A stretch of DNA of 21,245 bases from a virus. Location of the stretch: positions 1-21,245 of the IMG/VR virus record IMGVR_UViG_3300017773_000183. One strand, 5' to 3'. This document shows, in pieces, positions 9,438-19,239 of the stretch. The notes below the pieces were generated by a model. That model saw only the letters and a list, made by a program, of their open reading frames with translations, was not told where the DNA came from and made no database searches. Both the position numbers and the translations under genes were made by a program. The first letter of the stretch is position 1; the number at the start of each line of letters is the position of its first letter.

Positions 9438-11147
9438 ATGGCTGAAAAACTTATAAGCCCTGGCGTATTTACTGCCGAAAACGATCTTTCATTCATACCA
9501 GCAGGTGTCGGTGAAATAGGTGGTGCAATCGTAGGGCCAACAGTAAAAGGACCTGCAATGGTACCAACTGTTGTTAATAGCTATGCAGAATACGTACAAA
9601 TGTTTGGAGACACATTCCAGTCTGGAAGTTCCAATACAGAATATTTAACATCAATATCCGCAAGGGAATATTTAAAGCACTCAGGAACTCTTACAGTAGT
9701 TAGAGTAATGCCTGATTCTTATAGTAATGCTAGCTCTAATGTAACTCAGTCAGATGGTACAGGTTCATCATTTACTCTTAATACTATATCAGATGGTGAG
9801 ATTATGAATAGTACATCTTCTGTAGATGGAAATGGAGTTTTACCTTCAGGAAGCAAAGACAATTTAAGATGGGAAATTACCTCTGTTAACGATACAAAGG
9901 GAACATTTACTCTTGTTATTCGTCGTGGTAACGATTCTACAAAACACAAAGTAGTTCTTGAAACCCACAATGGTCTTAGCTTAGATCCAAACTCACCAAA
10001 TTACATAGCCAAAAGAATTGGAGATCAAAGAAATGAATTATCCTCTGATGGTTCATACATACAGCCTTCAGGAAATTATCCAAACCAATCAAAATACGTT
10101 TATGTAAGTGGCGTAGCTGATACTATAGATTTTCTAGATCCAGCAGGAGCGGTTAGAGTAGCTACAGCTACTGGAAGTTTACCAGCAGTAGCAAGTGGTA
10201 CCTTTGCTGGTGCAACAGATGGTACGGGAGCTACGGGAGCTAAACATATGTTTGGAGACATTAGTTCAGATAACGTTCAAGGATTGGGAGCTACAACAAA
10301 AGGATTCACAAATTATGGACATGCTTTTAACTTGTTAGCAAATCAAGACGAGTATGATATAAATCTTTTATGGGCGCCAGGTCTAAATAATAAAGATCAT
10401 AGCGCATTATGCAATACTTTAATTACTACCTGTGAAGGAAGAGGAGACTGTTTTGCCCTGGTAGATCCAGTAAATTACGGAGCTACTTTAGCTAATGCTG
10501 TTACAGAAGGTGGACTTGAAGATTCGTCTTATGCAGCTATGTATTGGCCATGGGTACAAACATCAGCTAATGGTAAATATGTTTGGGTACCAGCTTCAAC
10601 ATTAATGCCAGGTGTTATTGCATTTAACGATAAAGTTTCTCATGAATGGTATGCTCCAGCAGGATTAAACCGTGGAGGACTTAGTTCAGCAATTCAAGCA
10701 GAAAGAAAGCTAACCCATGCAAATAGAGACTCATTATATGAAGCAGCTATTAATCCCTTAGCAACATTCCCTGGTGAAGGCGTTTGTGCATGGGGTCAAA
10801 AAACACTTCAAAGAAAAGCATCGGCACTAGATCGTGTTAATGTAAGAAGATTATTAATTAACCTTAAGAAATTTATTGCTAGTACATCCAGATACTTAGT
10901 ATTTGAAAACAATACTTCTGCAACTAGAAACCGATTCTTAGCTTCAGTTAATCCTTACATGGAATCTGTACAAGAGAAAAATGGTTTATATGCTTTTAAA
11001 GTTGTAATGGACGATACAAACAATACTCCAGATATTATAGATAGAAACATTATGAAAGGTGAAATATTCCTACAGCCAGCTAAAGCTGCTGAATTCATCG
11101 TGGTAGACTTTAATATAATGCCAACTGGTGCAACTTTCGAAGACTAA
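9438..11147 (+). CDS. 18: Tail sheath protein, gp18-like
   Basis: A 569-residue protein (T4 gp18: 659). The N-terminus SPGVFTAENDLSFIPAGVGE followed by AIVGPTVKGPA is the classic start of T4-type sheath proteins. The C-terminal domain (from about residue 390) holds NRGGLSSAIQAERKLTHANR, INPLATFPGEGVCAWGQKT and the RRLLINLKKFIAS helix, all typical of the domain that mediates sheath-tube and intersubunit contacts. The middle (about 100-300), rich in Ser, Gly and Thr, corresponds to the surface domains and is shorter than in T4. The protein polymerises around the gp19 tube and contracts during DNA delivery. The start has AGGAGA. The stop at 11145-11147 abuts the next promoter-like motif. Confidence 0.96.
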   Translation: MAEKLISPGVFTAENDLSFIPAGVGEIGGAIVGPTVKGPAMVPTVVNSYAEYVQMFGDTFQSGSSNTEYLTSISAREYLKHSGTLTVVRVMPDSYSNASSNVTQSDGTGSSFTLNTISDGEIMNSTSSVDGNGVLPSGSKDNLRWEITSVNDTKGTFTLVIRRGNDSTKHKVVLETHNGLSLDPNSPNYIAKRIGDQRNELSSDGSYIQPSGNYPNQSKYVYVSGVADTIDFLDPAGAVRVATATGSLPAVASGTFAGATDGTGATGAKHMFGDISSDNVQGLGATTKGFTNYGHAFNLLANQDEYDINLLWAPGLNNKDHSALCNTLITTCEGRGDCFALVDPVNYGATLANAVTEGGLEDSSYAAMYWPWVQTSANGKYVWVPASTLMPGVIAFNDKVSHEWYAPAGLNRGGLSSAIQAERKLTHANRDSLYEAAINPLATFPGEGVCAWGQKTLQRKASALDRVNVRRLLINLKKFIASTSRYLVFENNTSATRNRFLASVNPYMESVQEKNGLYAFKVVMDDTNNTPDIIDRNIMKGEIFLQPAKAAEFIVVDFNIMPTGATFED

Positions 11148-11175: not shown

Positions 11176-11670
11176 ATGGCAAATTTAATAGACCCAACAG
11201 AATTAATGTACAACTCATTTGAACCAAAGGTTCAGAATAGGTTCATTATGTATGTTGACGGAATCCCTTCATATCTTATTAGAAAGGCGTCAAGACCAAC
11301 TTTTAAGAATAGCGAAGTACAAATGAAGCACATGAATTCACAAAGATTCATTAAAGGTCGTAGTGAATGGGATCCAATGACTGGTATCGAGCTTTATGAT
11401 CCAATAGTTCCTTCAGCTTGTCAATCCGTAATGGAATGGGTTCGTTTACATCATGAATCTGTAACAGGAAGAGATGGTTATGCAGATTTCTACAAGAAAG
11501 ACATAACTATCAATATGTTAGGACCAGTAGGTGATAAGGTAGAAGAATGGCAATTGAAAGGTGCTTTTATAACTAATGCCCAATTTGGCGATGTTAGTTG
11601 GGAAGAAGATGGAACTCCTGTTCTAATAACTTTAGATTTAAGATTCGACAAAGCAATATTGCAATACTAA
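11176..11670 (+). CDS. 19: Tail tube protein, gp19-like
   Basis: 164 residues, essentially the T4 gp19 length (163). The family pattern is clear: FEPKVQNRFIMYVDGIPSYLI near residues 16-36, then KASRPTF, WDPMTGIELYDPIVPSA around 71-88, a central helix (VMEWVRLHHESV), and the strand-rich C-terminus with WQLKGAFITNAQFGDVSWE. It forms the hexameric rings of the inner tail tube. RBS AAGGAGA is the best match to consensus in the window, in line with a high-copy structural protein. The gene is followed by a strong terminator. Confidence 0.95.
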   Translation: MANLIDPTELMYNSFEPKVQNRFIMYVDGIPSYLIRKASRPTFKNSEVQMKHMNSQRFIKGRSEWDPMTGIELYDPIVPSACQSVMEWVRLHHESVTGRDGYADFYKKDITINMLGPVGDKVEEWQLKGAFITNAQFGDVSWEEDGTPVLITLDLRFDKAILQY

Positions 11671-11690
11671 TATTCATTCAATAATATTAA

Positions 11691-11716
11691 GACTCCCAGA
11701 AATGGGAGTTTTTTTT
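11691..11716 (+). terminator. Factor-independent terminator after gp19
   Basis: ACTCCCA (11692-11698) pairs perfectly with TGGGAGT (11703-11709) around a GAAA tetraloop, with a T-run to 11716. Separates sheath/tube from the assembly/baseplate unit. Confidence 0.95.
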
Positions 11717-11760: not shown

Positions 11761-12636
11761 ATGTCAAATAAGGTTACAGAAGACTACCCAGGCAAATCAC
11801 TAAGCGTAGAAGAATTAAAAGCAAAAGTTACTGCAGATGCTAATATAGAAGCAGTAAAAAAATCAAAATTCCCAACAGAAATTATAGACTTACCAAGTAA
11901 AGGATTATTATATTCTAGTGACAATCCATTAAGTTCTGGTAAAGTAGAAATGAAATATATGACAGCAAAAGAAGAAGACATTTTAACATCTTCTAATCTT
12001 ATCCAAAAAGGTGTTGTTATCGATACATTGTTAAGAGCTTTAATTGTTAGTAATGGCGAAGGTCAATCTGTTAGTTATGGTGACTTAACTATTGGAGATA
12101 AAAATGCAATAATGGTAGCTGCAAGAGTCCTTGGTTACGGATCTGAATATCCTGTAGAAATGACTTGTCCTCATTGTCAAGCTAAATCTAAATTAGAAGT
12201 AGATTTAGCTTCTCTAGAAAATAAATCTATAGATGAATCTTTATTAAAAGATGGTCCAATATATGAGTTTAACCTGCCAGCATCTAAACGTGATATAACT
12301 TTTAAAATCCTAACCCACAACGATGAAAAAAAAGTGGAAGAGGAAGCTAAAAAGATGAAAAAGAAAAACTTTGGTGGCAATGGAATTACCTATGAATTAA
12401 CTAGTAGATTAAAGCACATGATACTATCTGTTGATGGAGTTACCGATTTAAAATCTATTAAGGAGTTTGTAGAAAACGAGTTCCTATCCAGAGATTCTTT
12501 GGCATTTCGTAAGCACATAGAAACTATGTCCCCTGATGTAGATATGTCAGTACCTTTTGAATGTGAGCATTGTGGCCATGAAGAGCCATCTATCCAGATG
12601 CCAATGAATGTAAACTTTTTTTGGCCTGGGGCTTAA
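11761..12636 (+). CDS. 26: gp26-like baseplate hub / tail-assembly protein
   Basis: A 291-residue protein of the T4 gp26 baseplate family. The diagnostic region is LPSKGLLYSSDNPLSSGKVE, then KYMTAKEEDIL and DTLLRALI (residues about 44-94). Two CxxC pairs, C136-P-H-C139 and C268-E-H-C271, probably bind one or two zinc ions. It ends PMNVNFFWPGA, FFWP being the usual end of the family as I recall it. T4 gp26 (208 residues) is needed for baseplate hub assembly and lies next to gene 51. Here the gene follows the tube gene and precedes the tape measure, where most other tailed phages have tail-assembly chaperones. RBS is AAGGAG. A slippery run and hairpin overlap its 3' end and probably direct some ribosomes into the next ORF. 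Confidence 0.88.
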   Translation: MSNKVTEDYPGKSLSVEELKAKVTADANIEAVKKSKFPTEIIDLPSKGLLYSSDNPLSSGKVEMKYMTAKEEDILTSSNLIQKGVVIDTLLRALIVSNGEGQSVSYGDLTIGDKNAIMVAARVLGYGSEYPVEMTCPHCQAKSKLEVDLASLENKSIDESLLKDGPIYEFNLPASKRDITFKILTHNDEKKVEEEAKKMKKKNFGGNGITYELTSRLKHMILSVDGVTDLKSIKEFVENEFLSRDSLAFRKHIETMSPDVDMSVPFECEHCGHEEPSIQMPMNVNFFWPGA

Positions 12637-12646
12637 CTATAAGCCC
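12616..12646 (+). promoter_or_regulatory. Putative programmed ribosomal frameshift signal
   Basis: Seven consecutive T (12616-12622) are read as two Phe codons in the gp26 frame. A 6-nt spacer (12623-12628) follows, then a perfect stem GGGCTTA (12629-12635) / TAAGCCC (12640-12646) with a 4-nt loop. The stem encloses the gp26 stop codon. The downstream frame is open from 12614 to 12862 with no start codon before 12671. Moving from the gp26 frame to that frame needs +1 or -2, and both keep tRNA-Phe on UUU. No T-tract follows the hairpin, so it is not a terminator. Confidence 0.7.
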
Positions 12647-12670
12647 ATTCTGCACAAACAGATTTTTGAA

Positions 12671-12862
12671 ATGTTATACTTTTCTCAAGGATCTTTTACA
12701 CATACCGATCTGTATGAGATGCCAGTTTACTTAAGAACATTCTATTATAAGGAGCTAAGTAAGCAGCTAAAAACTGAAAAGGAAGCCATGGATAAAGCCG
12801 GAAAAGGCAAATCTTCTGGAAAGCCTAATATACCTAGTTGGGCAAAAAGTTCTGGCAAATGA
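12671..12862 (+). CDS. Small ORF after gp26, putative frameshift extension (tail-assembly chaperone)
   Basis: From ATG 12671 the product is 63 residues, but this start has no Shine-Dalgarno (upstream is TTTTTGAA). The frame is open back to 12614, and the extra residues (NYKPILHKQIFE) read as natural protein continuing into the first helix. No ATG, GTG or TTG lies in that stretch. A fusion to the gp26-like protein by +1 or -2 frameshifting at 12616-12622 would give about 366-367 residues. The sequence SFTHTDLYEMPVYLRTFYYK resembles the short MPxxxR-containing helical proteins seen before tape measures in other myophages, from memory. The Lys/Gly/Ser tail is probably disordered. It occupies the position of T4 gene 51, but similarity to gp51 is not evident. 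The stop overlaps the next promoter-like motif. Confidence 0.75.
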   Translation: MLYFSQGSFTHTDLYEMPVYLRTFYYKELSKQLKTEKEAMDKAGKGKSSGKPNIPSWAKSSGK

Positions 12863-12900: not shown

Positions 12901-13194
12901 ATGAATACAAATACCAAATTAAAAAAATACATTCGTGAATCTATTGCATTTGAAATTAAACAAAATCCAGATGCTAATTGGTTATCAGAAGGTTTTGTTA
13001 GTAGAATAGCAAACCACTTAAAAAAAGTTTTAAGCACCTCTGCTACCCAAAGATATGATGCTGAGCTATCCAAAATAGCTAAAACAGGTCCCGCAGGAAA
13101 AAAAGCCGTTAAAAAATTAGTCGATACAATTTCACAAGTAGAAAAAGATATGAAAGAAGTAGATAGATTAATAGCTAAGTATGGTATTGATTAA
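12901..13194 (+). CDS. Hypothetical 97-aa helical protein upstream of tape measure
   Basis: A short basic, almost entirely helical protein. The N-terminus (LKKYIRESIAFEIKQ, residues 7-21) resembles the leader-like helix of the 912-1880 protein. Residues about 66-92 form a second charged helix that could be a coiled coil. RBS is AGGA about 8 nt before the ATG. It overlaps the tape measure gene by 1 nt (TAATG), so the two are probably made in a coupled way, as expected for a tape measure partner or chaperone. In T4 this neighbourhood holds hub genes 27 and 28, but I see no similarity to them. Function unknown. Confidence 0.78.
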   Translation: MNTNTKLKKYIRESIAFEIKQNPDANWLSEGFVSRIANHLKKVLSTSATQRYDAELSKIAKTGPAGKKAVKKLVDTISQVEKDMKEVDRLIAKYGID

Positions 13195-15269
13195 TGGCTA
13201 AAAAAGATCCAAAAGAGACGTTAGATTCAGCTAGAGAACTTGCTAAACAGTTAGGTTCTAATACAAGCGCTGTGCAAGCATATCTTAAGGTTCAAGAAAA
13301 AGTAAGAGACATTCAAAAAGAAATGGTTGATCTTGTAAAAGAAGAAGCCATTAAAAATAATGACCAAGTTAAAGCTGCCCAGCAGGTTTCAGATGCCCAA
13401 AGAAGACATATTGATAGACAGAAAGAACTTAATAATATGGTCCAAAAGTATGTTGATAAATGGTACGATTTTAAAGCTATAGCTCAAGACCCACAAGTTG
13501 CTAGAGGTTTATTTTTAGTTGCATCAGCAGCAAAAGCAAAAGAAATCGCTGGATCTTTTCATGATATGCAACATGAAGCTGGACTAGCTTATACTCAAAC
13601 ATTCCAAATGGCAGGTACTCTAGGTAAATCTGTAGCATCTGGGTTTATGCTAGGTGTAGGATTTAAAGCTTCTGCAAAAGCTGCCGGTGCACTTGCAAAT
13701 GAAATGGGTGACATCAGCAAAGTAAGTTCTGAAGCAGTGGTCCAAGTAGCTTCTATGGCTAAATCTTATGGAGTTTCTGAAGCAGAAGGTGCTAAGCTAT
13801 TTAAGCAAATGAAATCTATTAGTGGAGCTTCTGATGCAGTTGTAGCAGCCAACATGAAATCTACTATAGAATTAGCTAGAGCCAGTGGAGTTGCTCCAGG
13901 TAAGGTAATGAATTCTATAGCTTCTGATACGGAATTCTTTGCAGGGTTTGCTAAAGATGGTGGAAAAAATATAGGTGAAACTGCAATTCAAGCAGCTAAG
14001 CTAGGTATATCTATGAGTGATGTATCATCTATGCTAAATGGAATTCTGGATGTAGAATCTTCTATAGAAAAAGAAATGGAAGCTTCTGTATTATTAAACA
14101 GACAAATTTCATTTGACAAAGCTAGACAACTAGCTATGGATGGTGATACACTTGGTGCTACTAAAGCAATATTAGAACAAGTAGGTGGTGCAGCAGAATT
14201 CCAAAATATGTCTATTATTCAAAGAAAAGCTTTAGCCGAAGCTGCTGGTGTAGAATTAAGTACAATGCAACAGATGGTTTCTAGTAGAGAATCCCAAATA
14301 GAAATGGGTCTTGTGGAAGCTAGCACAACAGAAAAAATAATGAAAACAGTTATGGGAACTGGTTCTTTCTTAAAAGAAAATTTAACTGTAATGTCATCAG
14401 GTCTTAATGTTGTAGCTAGTTTAAAAAATACAAAATTGGGTGAATATGCAGCAACAGCACTTCATAACGCAAAGCAATTAGTTTTCTTCGCAGCAGAAAA
14501 AGCTCATGTGGCTTACTTAAAAATGTTTAAAGGTGGTAAAGGTGTAACTAAAAATAATATGTTAGACCGAAGATCTTTCGGCCGTGGTGGCGGAGGATTC
14601 ACTGGAATGACTCCTACTGCTAGTAAAGGAACTGGAGGATTCTTAAAAGGTTTAAATCCTACGTCTCTAATAAAAGGTGCAGCTGCAATGGTTCTTATGG
14701 GTGCAGCTTTATTCGTAGCAGCTAAAGGATTTCAAGAGTTGGCTAAAGTAGAATGGGGTATGTTATTCCCTGGCGCAGTAATAGCATTGGTTGCTTTAAC
14801 TGCAGCAATGGTTGGTATAGGTGCAATAGCACCATTAGTACTAACAGGGTCTTTAGCTTTTGGTGCTATGTCAGTAGCTCTATTGTTATTTGGTACTGCA
14901 CTAAGTGTAGTTGCAGGGTCCTTACCTTTAATGGTAACTCCATTAACCCAACTTGCTGAAGTAGGTGGAACTGCTTTAATGAGTATAGGTTTAGGATTTG
15001 GTGCAATGGGTATGGGTCTAGTTTCAATGGCTGGCGGTCTTGCACTAATAACTCCTATGTTACCAACACTTCTAGCAGTAGGTGGTCTTGCAACAATGGG
15101 AATGAGTTTACTAGGTGGTGGCGGTGAAGGAAAAGCTGGCGGTGATAATGTAGTTGTAGAAAAACTTGACGAGTTAATAGGGTTAATTCGTGAAGGTGGA
15201 ACTATTAATATGGATGGCAAAAAAGTTGGTGATGTTATAGCACTAGCTCAAGGACCTTTAGGATCTTAA
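13194..15269 (+). CDS. Tail tape measure protein, gp29 analogue
   Basis: A 691-residue protein, the longest in the window (T4 gp29: 590). The N-terminal 100 residues are charged coiled coil (VQEKVRDIQKEMVDLVKEEA). Residues about 120-400 are Ala/Met/Ser-rich helices. A Gly-rich linker lies near 463-485 (GRGGGGFTG). Residues about 490-645 form a long hydrophobic region with five or six membrane-like segments. The C-terminus ends with a short strand (INMDGKKVGDVIALAQG) typical of tape measures. Position after tube and putative chaperone genes supports the call. It would set tail length and probably enter the host envelope during DNA delivery. At about 1.5 angstrom per residue, the usual rule of thumb, it would span about 100 nm; this is an estimate. 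The next gene starts two bases after its stop. Confidence 0.88.
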   Translation: MAKKDPKETLDSARELAKQLGSNTSAVQAYLKVQEKVRDIQKEMVDLVKEEAIKNNDQVKAAQQVSDAQRRHIDRQKELNNMVQKYVDKWYDFKAIAQDPQVARGLFLVASAAKAKEIAGSFHDMQHEAGLAYTQTFQMAGTLGKSVASGFMLGVGFKASAKAAGALANEMGDISKVSSEAVVQVASMAKSYGVSEAEGAKLFKQMKSISGASDAVVAANMKSTIELARASGVAPGKVMNSIASDTEFFAGFAKDGGKNIGETAIQAAKLGISMSDVSSMLNGILDVESSIEKEMEASVLLNRQISFDKARQLAMDGDTLGATKAILEQVGGAAEFQNMSIIQRKALAEAAGVELSTMQQMVSSRESQIEMGLVEASTTEKIMKTVMGTGSFLKENLTVMSSGLNVVASLKNTKLGEYAATALHNAKQLVFFAAEKAHVAYLKMFKGGKGVTKNNMLDRRSFGRGGGGFTGMTPTASKGTGGFLKGLNPTSLIKGAAAMVLMGAALFVAAKGFQELAKVEWGMLFPGAVIALVALTAAMVGIGAIAPLVLTGSLAFGAMSVALLLFGTALSVVAGSLPLMVTPLTQLAEVGGTALMSIGLGFGAMGMGLVSMAGGLALITPMLPTLLAVGGLATMGMSLLGGGGEGKAGGDNVVVEKLDELIGLIREGGTINMDGKKVGDVIALAQGPLGS

Positions 15270-15270
15270 T

Positions 15271-16902
15271 ATGGCATTATTTGGGGATTTAAAAAACGAC
15301 GACTTTGCTAAAAAACTAGCAACTCACTACCATAAACATATAGGAAAAAATGAGTTTAAAGATATTAGATCTGAAGCTGAAATAAACAATCCTAATACTC
15401 CTTTGTGGAATAAAGCACCTTTAATGCAGAGAGGAATTCAGAGAGGTCAAGAAAATCCAAACGGTAAAATAAACTTTATAACTGCACCTGCTATAGATAC
15501 ATTAAGAGTCGGTAAGTATTTAACTTCTCCTGATGGTTTGCTATTTATGGCCAAGCAATTTGGTTTGCAAGCAAGTAATCCTAAAATGGAATATGGGATT
15601 GATCTTCATCCCAATAGAATATACAACCCATTAACAACTATAGCTCAAATTCCTGCTAATCTTATAGGCTTGCATATTGATCGACATGGTGCCGGTGTAG
15701 CAAATCAGCCAGAAACCAATTACGAATTTGTAGTTAAAGCAAATAATAAAATAGATAAAAATAGACTTTTACAGTTAGCAAAAGACATGGGTGTCGGTAG
15801 ATTTGATAAAGCTGCTAACCCAATTAAAGTTCCAAAAGGTATTGCTAAAATAAATGAAATTCTAGATAAGCTTGGTGGATTTTTAAATCGTGGTGCTGGT
15901 GAGCCAATAAAAAGGCTATCTGGAATTATGGGTCCTAATTCTTTATTTGGAGTTGGAAGGACAACCATAAGAAGACATGCAGCACCGGAATCTTTTAGTT
16001 CTGAAAAAATCGGAATGCAATATTCTCATGGAGATAATACATATACTAAAAAATATCCTGAAGGTCTTTTTAAAGAGTTACATGATTTTAATCCTGAAGA
16101 AGGTGTTTATGGAATCATATCTGATGCACCGGCTGCTTCAGGCGAATCTACAACACCAAAAGGTATTTTTGCGTATAAAAGTTTTGAGTATGGTGATATA
16201 GTTAGAGCTTCTAAAGAAAATACATTAAAAGATTTTACAGGTAAAAAAGACTATACAGAAGTAAATGCAAATAAAATTAATGGTCTTGTTAATTATGGTA
16301 ATCAACGAGGAGATTCTGATAGGTTGGTAACCGAAGAAGATCCAGATTTAGAAGACTTTGTTAAGTTTTCTATTACTGGTATGGTTAATAATACAGAAAC
16401 TATTTTAAAATTTAGAGCTTATGGCCTTGGTTCTATAAGCGACGATACAGCATTTAATTGGAATGAAGTTAACTATTCTGGAAGAACCATGTCTCAGTAT
16501 GCATTTGATAAAGTTTCTAGAACATTAACTCATGATTTATTAATACCATCATTTACAGCTGCTGAATTAAAAGCTAATTATAATAAGCTAGATAGACTAT
16601 ATAAAATGGCTTCTCCTAGTATAGATTCAGCTGGACTTCCAATTGCCCCATTAAATAAATTTACTCTTGGCGATCTTTATGATGATGTTAATGTTATTAT
16701 TGAAAAAATAACTTTTACTTTAGAAGAGGATTATTCTTGGGATCTTGGTATAGGTGATGGAGATGAAACTTCCGGAGCTCAACTACCAATGGTTATAAAA
16801 TTAAACCTTAGCTATAAGTTTGCTACAAACGTAGATGGAAATTTATTTACTAATTCTAGTAGATTCTTCGGTAAAAAAATAGAGGAGTTTGGTAATGTCT
16901 AG
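15271..16902 (+). CDS. Putative baseplate / tail tube-baseplate junction protein
   Basis: A 543-residue protein directly after the tape measure, coupled by TAATATG. The N-terminus MALFGDLKNDDFAKKL is followed by a variable region. The C-terminal third is the recognisable part: TILKFRAYGLGSISDDTAFN, then NEVNYSGRTMSQYAF, LTHDLLIPSFTAAELKANYN and FTLGDLYDDVNVIIEKITFT, with DYSWDLG near the end. I recall this arrangement in unnamed baseplate proteins of marine myophages. Its place suggests the role of T4 gp48 or gp54, which initiate the tube on the hub, but I cannot show homology to either. Alternatives are a wedge component or a second hub protein. It overlaps the next gene by 8 nt. Confidence 0.6.
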   Translation: MALFGDLKNDDFAKKLATHYHKHIGKNEFKDIRSEAEINNPNTPLWNKAPLMQRGIQRGQENPNGKINFITAPAIDTLRVGKYLTSPDGLLFMAKQFGLQASNPKMEYGIDLHPNRIYNPLTTIAQIPANLIGLHIDRHGAGVANQPETNYEFVVKANNKIDKNRLLQLAKDMGVGRFDKAANPIKVPKGIAKINEILDKLGGFLNRGAGEPIKRLSGIMGPNSLFGVGRTTIRRHAAPESFSSEKIGMQYSHGDNTYTKKYPEGLFKELHDFNPEEGVYGIISDAPAASGESTTPKGIFAYKSFEYGDIVRASKENTLKDFTGKKDYTEVNANKINGLVNYGNQRGDSDRLVTEEDPDLEDFVKFSITGMVNNTETILKFRAYGLGSISDDTAFNWNEVNYSGRTMSQYAFDKVSRTLTHDLLIPSFTAAELKANYNKLDRLYKMASPSIDSAGLPIAPLNKFTLGDLYDDVNVIIEKITFTLEEDYSWDLGIGDGDETSGAQLPMVIKLNLSYKFATNVDGNLFTNSSRFFGKKIEEFGNV

Positions 16903-17197
16903 ATATGAAAGTAATAAAATTATAAAAAATAAAAATTCTAATAGAATTTATAAAAGTAATATATATCCCAAAATAGAAAGATCCGTCACAGATATATACA
17001 TAATTACTAAAAGTGGTGATCGATTAGATTTGCTAGCAAATAAGTATTATAATGACCAAAATTTATGGTGGATTATAGCTACAGCTAACAACTTAGGTGC
17101 ATCTGGTTTAATAGTGCCTCCTGCTAAACAGATAAGAATACCAACAGAAGTTGCAAATATTTTAAGCGAATATCAAGAGTTACAAGAGGAAAGATAA
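16895..17197 (+). CDS. 53: LysM-like baseplate wedge protein, gp53-like
   Basis: A 100-residue protein from ATG 16895. An in-frame TTG at 16889 is a poorer start because GAGGAG at 16882-16887 sits 7 nt before the ATG but almost touches the TTG. The core is a LysM-type module: YIITKSGDRLDLLANKYYND, then LWWIIATANNLG and a PPAKQIRIP end strand (residues about 34-83). T4 gp53 (baseplate wedge) has a LysM-like fold, and marine T4-like phages carry short gp53 homologues of this kind. It probably binds other baseplate proteins rather than peptidoglycan. The start lies inside the previous gene and the stop overlaps the next start (TAATG), so the three tail genes are tightly coupled. Confidence 0.8.
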   Translation: MSRYESNKIIKNKNSNRIYKSNIYPKIERSVTDIYIITKSGDRLDLLANKYYNDQNLWWIIATANNLGASGLIVPPAKQIRIPTEVANILSEYQELQEER

Positions 17198-19239
17198 TGC
17201 CTATATTTTTAAGAGATTTTCCTTATGGTTCACATTTAACCTCTAGGGAAAATGCTATGAAAAGCCCTGGTCAGTTTCAACCGTGGAATACGTCTAAGAT
17301 ACCTTGGATGAGATTTACATCTAATGTTTTAGTAGATGGTTCTAGATTAAAGCACAGTGTACTTTCTGGTGGTTCAGCCAAAACTTTAGAAGACTTATAT
17401 GATACTAGTAGCAGAAATACCCCTTCTCCAGGTGTAACAGATGCAACAGTAAAACATAAAGGTTCGATGGGTTCTTTAAAAGAAGTTATTGTAAACTATA
17501 AATGTTGGAATTTAAAACAACTTGCTCAGCTAGAAAAATTATTTATGTCTTTAGGTAAAACTGTAGTTTTAGAATATGGCTGGAGTATAAAACCTAATGG
17601 ATCTAGAGTTTCTAGTGCTCTTGGTTATGATGGATGTTCTAAAGAATTCGTAGACTTTTTTACTTCTGCACAATCTAAAATGAAATCTGAACAAGGTTGC
17701 TATGGTGCAGAAAAAGGTGTTGTATCTAATTTTAGTTGGACTCAGAATGATGATGGATCTTATACATGTTCTACAACTTTTGTAACACCATCTGAAATGA
17801 TGATGTCTAAAGATACTAAAAAAACTACAGATGAAATATGTTGTAAAACTTCTAAAGATGCTGATGATAATGAAGCCTGTAAAAAGCAATCAGATTTAGA
17901 AAGACCTTTAGATGAAATTGTAATAGGCCAAGTAATGCCTGTAGGAAAGTTATTGGTAACTTCCGGCCGAGTTCCCATAGGTACTTCTATAAAAATGGAT
18001 AAAGAAACTACTGAAGAGGAAAGAGAAAATGCTGCCGATAAATCTTGGTGGGACTGGACTAAAAAAACTCTTGGGATTACTTCATTTACTGTAGAGCAAC
18101 CATATATTTCATGGTCTTATTTTGAAGAAGAAATTGTAAATAAAACTCTAATGGACAAGTCAGATAATGATTCTAAGTCTCACATACTACCAGCAGATAT
18201 AGAAACTTGCCAATCTGGGTTTAGAAGAGATAGCATTAAGTGTTTAACCAGATTGGACTGTAGAGGTACCAAAATTTTAAATGTTAAAGATTCATTCACT
18301 TCTGCAGACCCAACAGTCTGTTTAATACCAGATCAATTTGTATGGGATATGTTTGACCATGATGGGGACTTAGAGGATTTTACAGACACTGCAGGTCTTT
18401 ATGAATATGCAAAAAGAGCCCCTTTTGATACTGGAGAAGGTAATAAAGGCTGGCTAGGTAATATTCTTTTAAATGTTTATTTCGTAAAAAAATGTGCAGC
18501 AGAATCTAATACCTTAGAAGAATTATTATCGAAAGTTTTATCTGGGATAAATTCTGCTTGTGGAAATAATTGGGATTTAATAACTTTACCTTTAGAGTCT
18601 AATACAAATATAATGACCGTTGTAGATTCTAAGTCCTTGGGTAAATCAGTACCAACATCACATACAATTAATGTATTTGGAAACAATTCTATATGTAGAA
18701 GTGTTAATATAGATACGAAAGTTCCTAATGCCATAAAAGCTCAGGTTATGTATGGGTCAAATAGAAAAGGATCTTCTGCGCCAGAAGGTGATGAGTATAG
18801 TTTATTTGGTAGTGGTTTAACAGATGCCACTAAATCTTGGAATAACCTATCTCAAAAAGTACCAAGTCCTTGTAAAGGTCCAGATGAAGGTTCTACAGAT
18901 AATAAAAAAGAAAATCCTCAGGAATTAATACAGGAAGCTATAGATGACTTAATGGAAGGTGTTGATAGTGAAACTATTAATGCTGTTAAGTCTGCTATAA
19001 AAGCTAAGTTAAATAAAAATAAAAAAGTACAAGAAGTCCAAGACCCACCTTTACTACCTATAAATCTAGGATTTTCCCTTGATGGTTATAATGGATTCCT
19101 GTGGGGACATTCTGTTAAAGCAAAACCAATTCCTAGTAGATATAAAGATGTTATATTTATGGTTAAAAGTATTGAGCATAAAATAGATATTAATAATTGG
19201 GAAACCACAATAGATACAGTTTTAAGAGTAGGCCAATAA
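17197..19239 (+). CDS. Putative baseplate hub protein, Cys-rich
   Basis: A 680-residue protein. Features seen: GSMGSLKEVIVNYKCWNLKQ, then LEKLFMSLGKTVVLEYGWS (about residues 89-129); GVVSNFSWTQNDDGSYTCST near 174-193; and a C-terminal domain with FSLDGYNGFLWG, YKDVIFMVKSIEHKI and NWETTIDTVLRV. These are, from memory, shared with large unnamed hub-type baseplate proteins of marine myophages, and the final domain resembles the strand-rich end domain of phage tail hub proteins. It carries 15 cysteines, strikingly many here, including a cluster at 215, 216 and 228. A Glu/Lys-rich helical insert lies near 565-610. Its order after the tape measure and LysM protein fits a gp27-like hub role. No lysozyme or peptidase motif is visible. 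The specific role is inference. Confidence 0.6.
   Translation: MPIFLRDFPYGSHLTSRENAMKSPGQFQPWNTSKIPWMRFTSNVLVDGSRLKHSVLSGGSAKTLEDLYDTSSRNTPSPGVTDATVKHKGSMGSLKEVIVNYKCWNLKQLAQLEKLFMSLGKTVVLEYGWSIKPNGSRVSSALGYDGCSKEFVDFFTSAQSKMKSEQGCYGAEKGVVSNFSWTQNDDGSYTCSTTFVTPSEMMMSKDTKKTTDEICCKTSKDADDNEACKKQSDLERPLDEIVIGQVMPVGKLLVTSGRVPIGTSIKMDKETTEEERENAADKSWWDWTKKTLGITSFTVEQPYISWSYFEEEIVNKTLMDKSDNDSKSHILPADIETCQSGFRRDSIKCLTRLDCRGTKILNVKDSFTSADPTVCLIPDQFVWDMFDHDGDLEDFTDTAGLYEYAKRAPFDTGEGNKGWLGNILLNVYFVKKCAAESNTLEELLSKVLSGINSACGNNWDLITLPLESNTNIMTVVDSKSLGKSVPTSHTINVFGNNSICRSVNIDTKVPNAIKAQVMYGSNRKGSSAPEGDEYSLFGSGLTDATKSWNNLSQKVPSPCKGPDEGSTDNKKENPQELIQEAIDDLMEGVDSETINAVKSAIKAKLNKNKKVQEVQDPPLLPINLGFSLDGYNGFLWGHSVKAKPIPSRYKDVIFMVKSIEHKIDINNWETTIDTVLRVGQ

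Follow-up and report, generated by a model that had tools for sequence, protein, structure and literature searches.

The gp26-type gene of the window, by which we mean the whole stretch of 21,245 nucleotides analysed here (positions 1 to 21,245 of the IMG/VR virus record IMGVR_UViG_3300017773_000183), and the reading frame that follows it very probably form one tail-assembly-chaperone locus, from which a short and a long protein would be made by a +1 slip. The gp26-type gene (11761 to 12636, + strand) encodes a putative short tail-assembly chaperone of 291 aa and about 32 kDa. The +1-frame extension (12623 to 12862, + strand; 79 codons plus stop), which we call the T domain, would turn this into a fusion with a predicted 366 aa and about 41 kDa. 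In the proposed mechanism most ribosomes would stop at the stop codon of the gp26-type gene (12634–12636), and their product would be the short, gp26-type form that corresponds to lambda G. A minority would shift at UUU-YUN-UGG, close to the 3′ end of the gene: here the peptidyl tRNA-Phe would slip +1 from UUU to UUY and translation would proceed in the +1 frame to 12862. The resulting long form would carry an additional helical domain, as lambda GT and T4 gp51 do. Both products would chaperone the tape measure protein, where the client and the short:long ratio are assumed from lambda. We infer the slipping of the ribosome and its exact codon, as we do the ratio and the chaperoning; the direct basis is the conservation of the slippery cassette, an open +1 frame under selection, the lack of usable start codons and the homology to cyanophage counterparts and through them to T4. 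The original prediction had read the pair as joined by a programmed frameshift and the core of this reading holds with amendments.

The product of the gp26-type gene belongs to the gp26 family (T4_baseplate, PF12322). It matched the Pfam model with E=1.8e-16 and 60.9 bits against a curated cut-off of 24.5, covering most of the model (profile positions 9–219 of 219), and it also matched PHROG 150, baseplate hub (E=1.5e-18). For the fold searches the N and T domains were modelled apart. The AlphaFold model for the N domain had a pLDDT of 83.7 and matched the baseplate hub subunit of SP-15 with E=6.9e-19, and its best matches in the PDB (ranks 1 and 2) were to the HK97 tail assembly chaperone 2OB9, neither of them significant (E=0.7 and 1.0). 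A sequence search of the PDB with the N domain gave no match. Read in frame, the 3′ end of the gene is AAC TTT TTT TGG CCT GGG GCT TAA. The slippery cassette TTT TTT TGG CCT occupies 12616–12627 (+ strand) and we can see the elements described beforehand at the very end of the gene: the T7 run (12616–12622), a 6-nt spacer (12623–12628) and a perfect 7-bp hairpin, GGGCTTA-ACTA-TAAGCCC (12629–12646, + strand; stem 12629–12635 and 12640–12646). The downstream frame is likewise open as had been described, from 12614, directly after its last stop (TAA, 12611–12613), across the run and up to the stop at 12860–12862. Searching the window for the pattern T7-N6-AGG returned no match.

The pair is located between the tube and tape measure genes, as in loci of the lambda G/GT kind. 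We identified a tail sheath gene at 9438–11147 (PHROG 23 tail sheath, E=5.8e-79; Pfam Phage_sheath_1, E=1.6e-11), a tail tube gene at 11176–11670 (PHROG 4542 tail tube, E=1.2e-20) and the gene of the tape measure protein, the putative client of the chaperone, at 13194–15269, all on the + strand. The product of the last of these showed 28% identity (E=5e-12) to the protein annotated as tape measure in the Flavobacterium phage immuto. The PHROG matches and this similarity bear out the order sheath, tube, pair, tape measure that had been read from the window, with the addition that a 97-aa ORF without a family match (12901–13194) precedes the tape measure gene. The order sheath, tube, pair was also found in Mel-JY01 (a Microcystis phage), immuto and SP-15. 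The interval between the tube and gp26 genes contains a hairpin and T run that resemble an intrinsic terminator (GACTCCCAGAAATGGGAGTTTTTTTT, 11690–11716), and the AT-rich DNA after it may be a promoter. A terminator is annotated at the equivalent place in SP-15. Two large tail-region ORFs (15271–16902, 543 aa, and 17197–19239, 680 aa) were without a convincing Pfam or PHROG match, and neither an Rfam family nor a tRNA was found in the window.

Using the window gene as the query, we found at least 590 relatives in IMG/VR, of which the best 80 were used, and a second scan with the immuto gene added 80 more. The junction was readable in 162 related loci. The consensus of the site across these loci is TTT YTN T.., with GGCCT nearly always following, and we detected the following variants: TTTTTTTGG in 121 loci, TTTCTTTGG in 35, TTTCTATGG in four and TTTCTATTC and TTTCTTTAC in one each. 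For a non-redundant set of 82 loci (<93% identical over 300 bases) the cassette was nearly invariant: T1–T3, Y4, T5, T7 and T12 were 100% conserved, G8G9 was kept in 80/82 loci and C10C11 in 81/82, all counted without correction for phylogeny. T3 is the wobble base of a Phe codon and is always T at the site. Elsewhere in the same 82 genes Phe was encoded by 577 TTT and 201 TTC codons (26% TTC), and the naive chance of finding TTT in all cases is 2e-11, with relatedness not accounted for. Further than 30 nt upstream of the site we found no in-frame T7 in the genes of the relatives. Given the conserved bases in the 82 loci, the Phe codon use and the scarcity of T7, the site is not due to chance; the run or an equivalent slippery site is present throughout the relatives, as proposed. 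The UGG is not essential, as TAC and TTC stand in its place in three loci (L129, L087 and L259). Coding in +1 does not fully account for the near invariance of GGCCT after the run, and this block may act itself.

The +1 direction is common to the distant phages Mel-JY01, immuto, RM378, SP-15, LIS04 and GXN1, and for SP-15, LIS04 and GXN1 a TTT-Y is available near the end of the gene in each case. The site of GXN1 reads TTT CGT, which are the shift codons of influenza PA-X (PMC5009743). Scans with the gp26 genes of SP-15 and RM378 each matched only the query itself. The junction pattern was also seen in ten loci on MAG contigs of bacteria and archaea, mostly Flavobacteriales; the MAG contigs carrying the gene are probably phage contigs that were binned with their hosts. 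The labels of these contigs (L259–L269) are mainly Flavobacteriales, besides Halobacteriovorax, Methylococcaceae and one Woesearchaeota bin, and they suggest Bacteroidota hosts for much of the clade.

In each junction examined, across all clades, the +1 frame stayed open as had been expected, and the junctions continue in this frame into a domain of the form GLxxxYRxxLHxQIFDIxxHGxGGFxxxxVYNMPxWLRxF. Over the 16 codons that separate the run from the ATG of the window we observed pN/pS values in the +1 frame of 0.28–0.29 in the window clade and 0.31–0.36 in the immuto clade, compared to 2.8–3.3 and 2.4–4.6, respectively, for the same stretch in frame 0. Judged from these ratios, purifying selection acts in +1 only and the stretch after the run appears to be translated in +1. 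This makes it very unlikely that the downstream ORF stands as a small gene by itself, with its own start or translated by re-initiation after the gp26 stop. The window does have an ATG at 12671, which opens an ORF of 63 aa (12671–12862, + strand), many cyanophage members show an ATG, GTG or TTG near the gp26 stop and in some members upstream starts are accompanied by a Shine-Dalgarno-like sequence. However, the ATG at 12671 lies behind 16 codons that are already under purifying selection, it is replaced by Ile or Leu in the relatives and it falls inside predicted helix 1 (residues 6–20 of the T domain). It also lacks a Shine-Dalgarno in the window, as noted originally. Well-placed starts are generally absent from the relatives too: before codon 20 of the T domain 51/82 loci lack an ATG and 15/82 lack start codons altogether. 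Furthermore a separate gene would leave the invariant cassette unexplained. Since the selection precedes the ATG and starts are generally missing, the 63-aa ORF is best regarded as the distal part of a longer extension that would be reached by fusion only. The structure model of the T domain consists of three helices (pLDDT 82), for which Foldseek returned no significant match, and tblastn of the domain among isolated phages found two records only. The GenBank record of Mel-JY01 lists the extension as a hypothetical protein with a TTG start (L082:4851-5087) and that of immuto as a 36-aa fragment (L083:4848-4958), and SP-15 has a 39-aa hypothetical ORF at the matching place (L084:4809-4928). 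These entries are probable annotation artefacts of a missed frameshift.

Homopolymers attract sequencing and assembly errors, yet the probability that such an indel has split a single gene is practically negligible: the same junction is found in phage isolates as well as in >150 separate contigs, also where the site contains no homopolymer, and the site itself is invariant. The T7 run would also be a possible place for RNA polymerase slippage, which would generate mixed mRNAs, one of them encoding the fusion. This is extremely unlikely, as about 40/162 loci carry TTTCTT or TTTCTA with no run longer than 3 and nevertheless show the same frame relation and the conserved domain. The remaining alternative concerns the direction of the shift, as both +1 and −2 reach the frame of the extension and both are possible for tRNA-Phe on T7. 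In a −2 shift, as used by phage Mu (PMC5009743), the P-site tRNA-Phe would re-pair two bases back, from T4-6 to T2-4, and the same fusion would contain one extra Phe. We observed TTT CTA TGG in four loci and TTT CTA TTC in one huge phage (L087), and these occur, together with TTT CTT TGG, in the same family and with an identical frame change. At the CTA sites the pairing after a −2 shift would be poor (Leu-tRNA on UUC, Phe-tRNA on NNU), whereas the +1 re-pairing from UUU to UUC is perfect. A Mu-type shift would call for −2 re-pairing in all members, which the CTA variants do not allow, and because they allow only the UUU to UUC re-pairing at +1 we favour +1 and consider −2 unlikely. Of the +1/−2 relation that had been proposed, +1 is the better reading and the Mu-like −2 the poorer one. 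The +1 slip of the first Phe codon from UUU to UUY fits all 162 loci, and a UUY at positions 2–4 would account for the invariant T3 and for the restriction of base 4 to T or C. The alternative, RF2-like slip at the second codon (from UUU or CUU to UUU) would be possible in most members and fails for those with CTA. An upstream internal Shine-Dalgarno (GGGG in many members of the immuto clade) was also considered as a stimulator and rejected; it is not universal and is explicable by coding. In E. coli tests UUU_U shifted only weakly in +1 and CUU_U far more strongly (Atkins 2016, PMC5009743), so the +1 slip would depend on stimulators to be highly efficient, and many members do not have the hairpin.

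The hairpin had been taken as part of the signal and this proved correct in part. Across 30 members of the window clade we detected compensatory changes at 6/7 pairs, and 70.5% of the hairpin cells were paired compared to 30–43% when the hairpin was slid. It is thus real and covarying in part of the window clade. It is not a general or defining element: about a third of the window clade retains it in intact form, many members lack it and it is largely missing from the immuto clade. We regard it as a putative optional, clade-limited stimulator.

In the cyanophages gp26 ends in an invariant T_TTT_TTC (a −1 heptamer) with gp51 in the −1 frame in 81/81 loci, 40 of which are non-redundant and 10 of these lack a start codon in the first 15 codons. 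Probably the cyanophage gp51 is a −1 frameshift extension and not a separate gene. The arrangement can be seen in S-PM2 (L090:21136-21364) and in loci L172–L251, and in the huge phage LR756511 (L088:4693-4990) a gp26 homologue combines GGT TTT TTC with a −1-frame T-like domain, similar to the cyanophages. Using hhalign, the +1 fusion aligned to the cyanophage gp26+gp51 fusion over both domains with prob 95.6 (T domains alone: 88.0). The cyanophage fusion in turn aligned to T4 gp51 along its length (prob 98.7). The direct match to T4 gp51 is weak (prob 10.0 for the +1 fusion and 2.9 for the T domain), and hence the link of the clade to T4 runs via the cyanophages. Within T4, gp26 aligned to residues 5–203 of gp51 (prob 99.4) and the C-terminal 42 residues of gp51 matched the short cyanophage gp51 (prob 96.6); by these alignments T4 gp51 is a gp26 paralogue plus a C-terminal domain. 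The cyanophage gp51 has been described as about 20% of the T4 length and as covering only the C-terminal part (Sullivan et al. 2010, PMC3037559).

G/GT frameshifting is classical in long-tailed phages, where −1, −2 and +1 cases are known, and a 2016 recoding review names T4 as an exception to this conserved tail frameshift (PMC5009743). With lambda G/GT the locus would share a short and a long chaperone from one gene, the place just before the tape measure gene and a small extra domain, and here too two ORFs in different frames overlap at a conserved slippery sequence. The shift of lambda is −1, whereas the window clade would use +1, with a larger gp26-type N domain and a different slippery cassette. 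Cyanophages of the S-PM2 type have homologous N and T domains with the junction at the same -FF- motif, but in a −1 relation at T_TTT_TTC instead of +1. In T4 gp51 likewise combines a gp26-like N part with a C-terminal domain matching cyanophage gp51, but gp26 and gp51 are separate genes on opposite strands and no frameshift is involved. The P-site slips of RF2 (CUU_U) and influenza PA-X (UUU_C) are resembled by TTT CTT TGG C and TTT CGT, respectively; unlike these, the window clade has neither an A-site stop codon nor a universal upstream Shine-Dalgarno stimulator, and the proteins are unrelated. For Pakpunavirus Adele and the Vandenendeviridae a frameshifted tail chaperone with a conserved poly-T and a misannotated extension is described (PMC12846349). 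The Adele shift is −1 at GTTTTT, compared to the proposed +1 of the window clade.

Tail-assembly chaperones of T4-like phages have reportedly been identified by Vladimirov, Gautam and Davidson (Virology 2022, 566:9-15), with T4 said to use two genes and a non-frameshift mechanism. PRFect cites the work with regard to a short gene and a longer fusion gene (PMC10885494), and it is cited elsewhere for poly-T −1 signals in T4-like chaperone genes (PMC12846349). The original statement that no such device had been described for a T4 gp26-type gene is therefore out of date, as far as the title of the 2022 study and the citations to it indicate. In the literature searched, where this study is represented by its title and citations, we did not see a +1 site described for a gp26-type gene. 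The locus extends the known lambda G/GT scheme, and T4-like chaperones as such were already identified in 2022.

We lean slightly towards the view that the gp26/gp51 superfamily reaches its short and long forms by three routes at one conserved -Phe-Phe- hinge: +1 shifting in the window clade and in phages of Flavobacterium, Bacillus, Listeria, Streptococcus and Rhodothermus, −1 shifting in cyanophages and a huge phage, and gene duplication in T4, with UUU-YUN-UGG-CCU, which has neither a stop codon nor a universal stimulator, as an undescribed signal. The group with the +1 site is a large one of mostly uncultured, contractile-tailed phages. For these the cassette provides a simple annotation rule for a domain that was missed or shortened in records such as those of Mel-JY01 and immuto, and it would be a new +1 cassette for the study of bacterial ribosomes. 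The family would represent a natural series in which the direction of the frameshift changed and the fused protein stayed, and a gp26-type gene whose +1 site is deeply conserved, beside −1 homologues, relates the two-gene arrangement of T4 to the general G/GT scheme.
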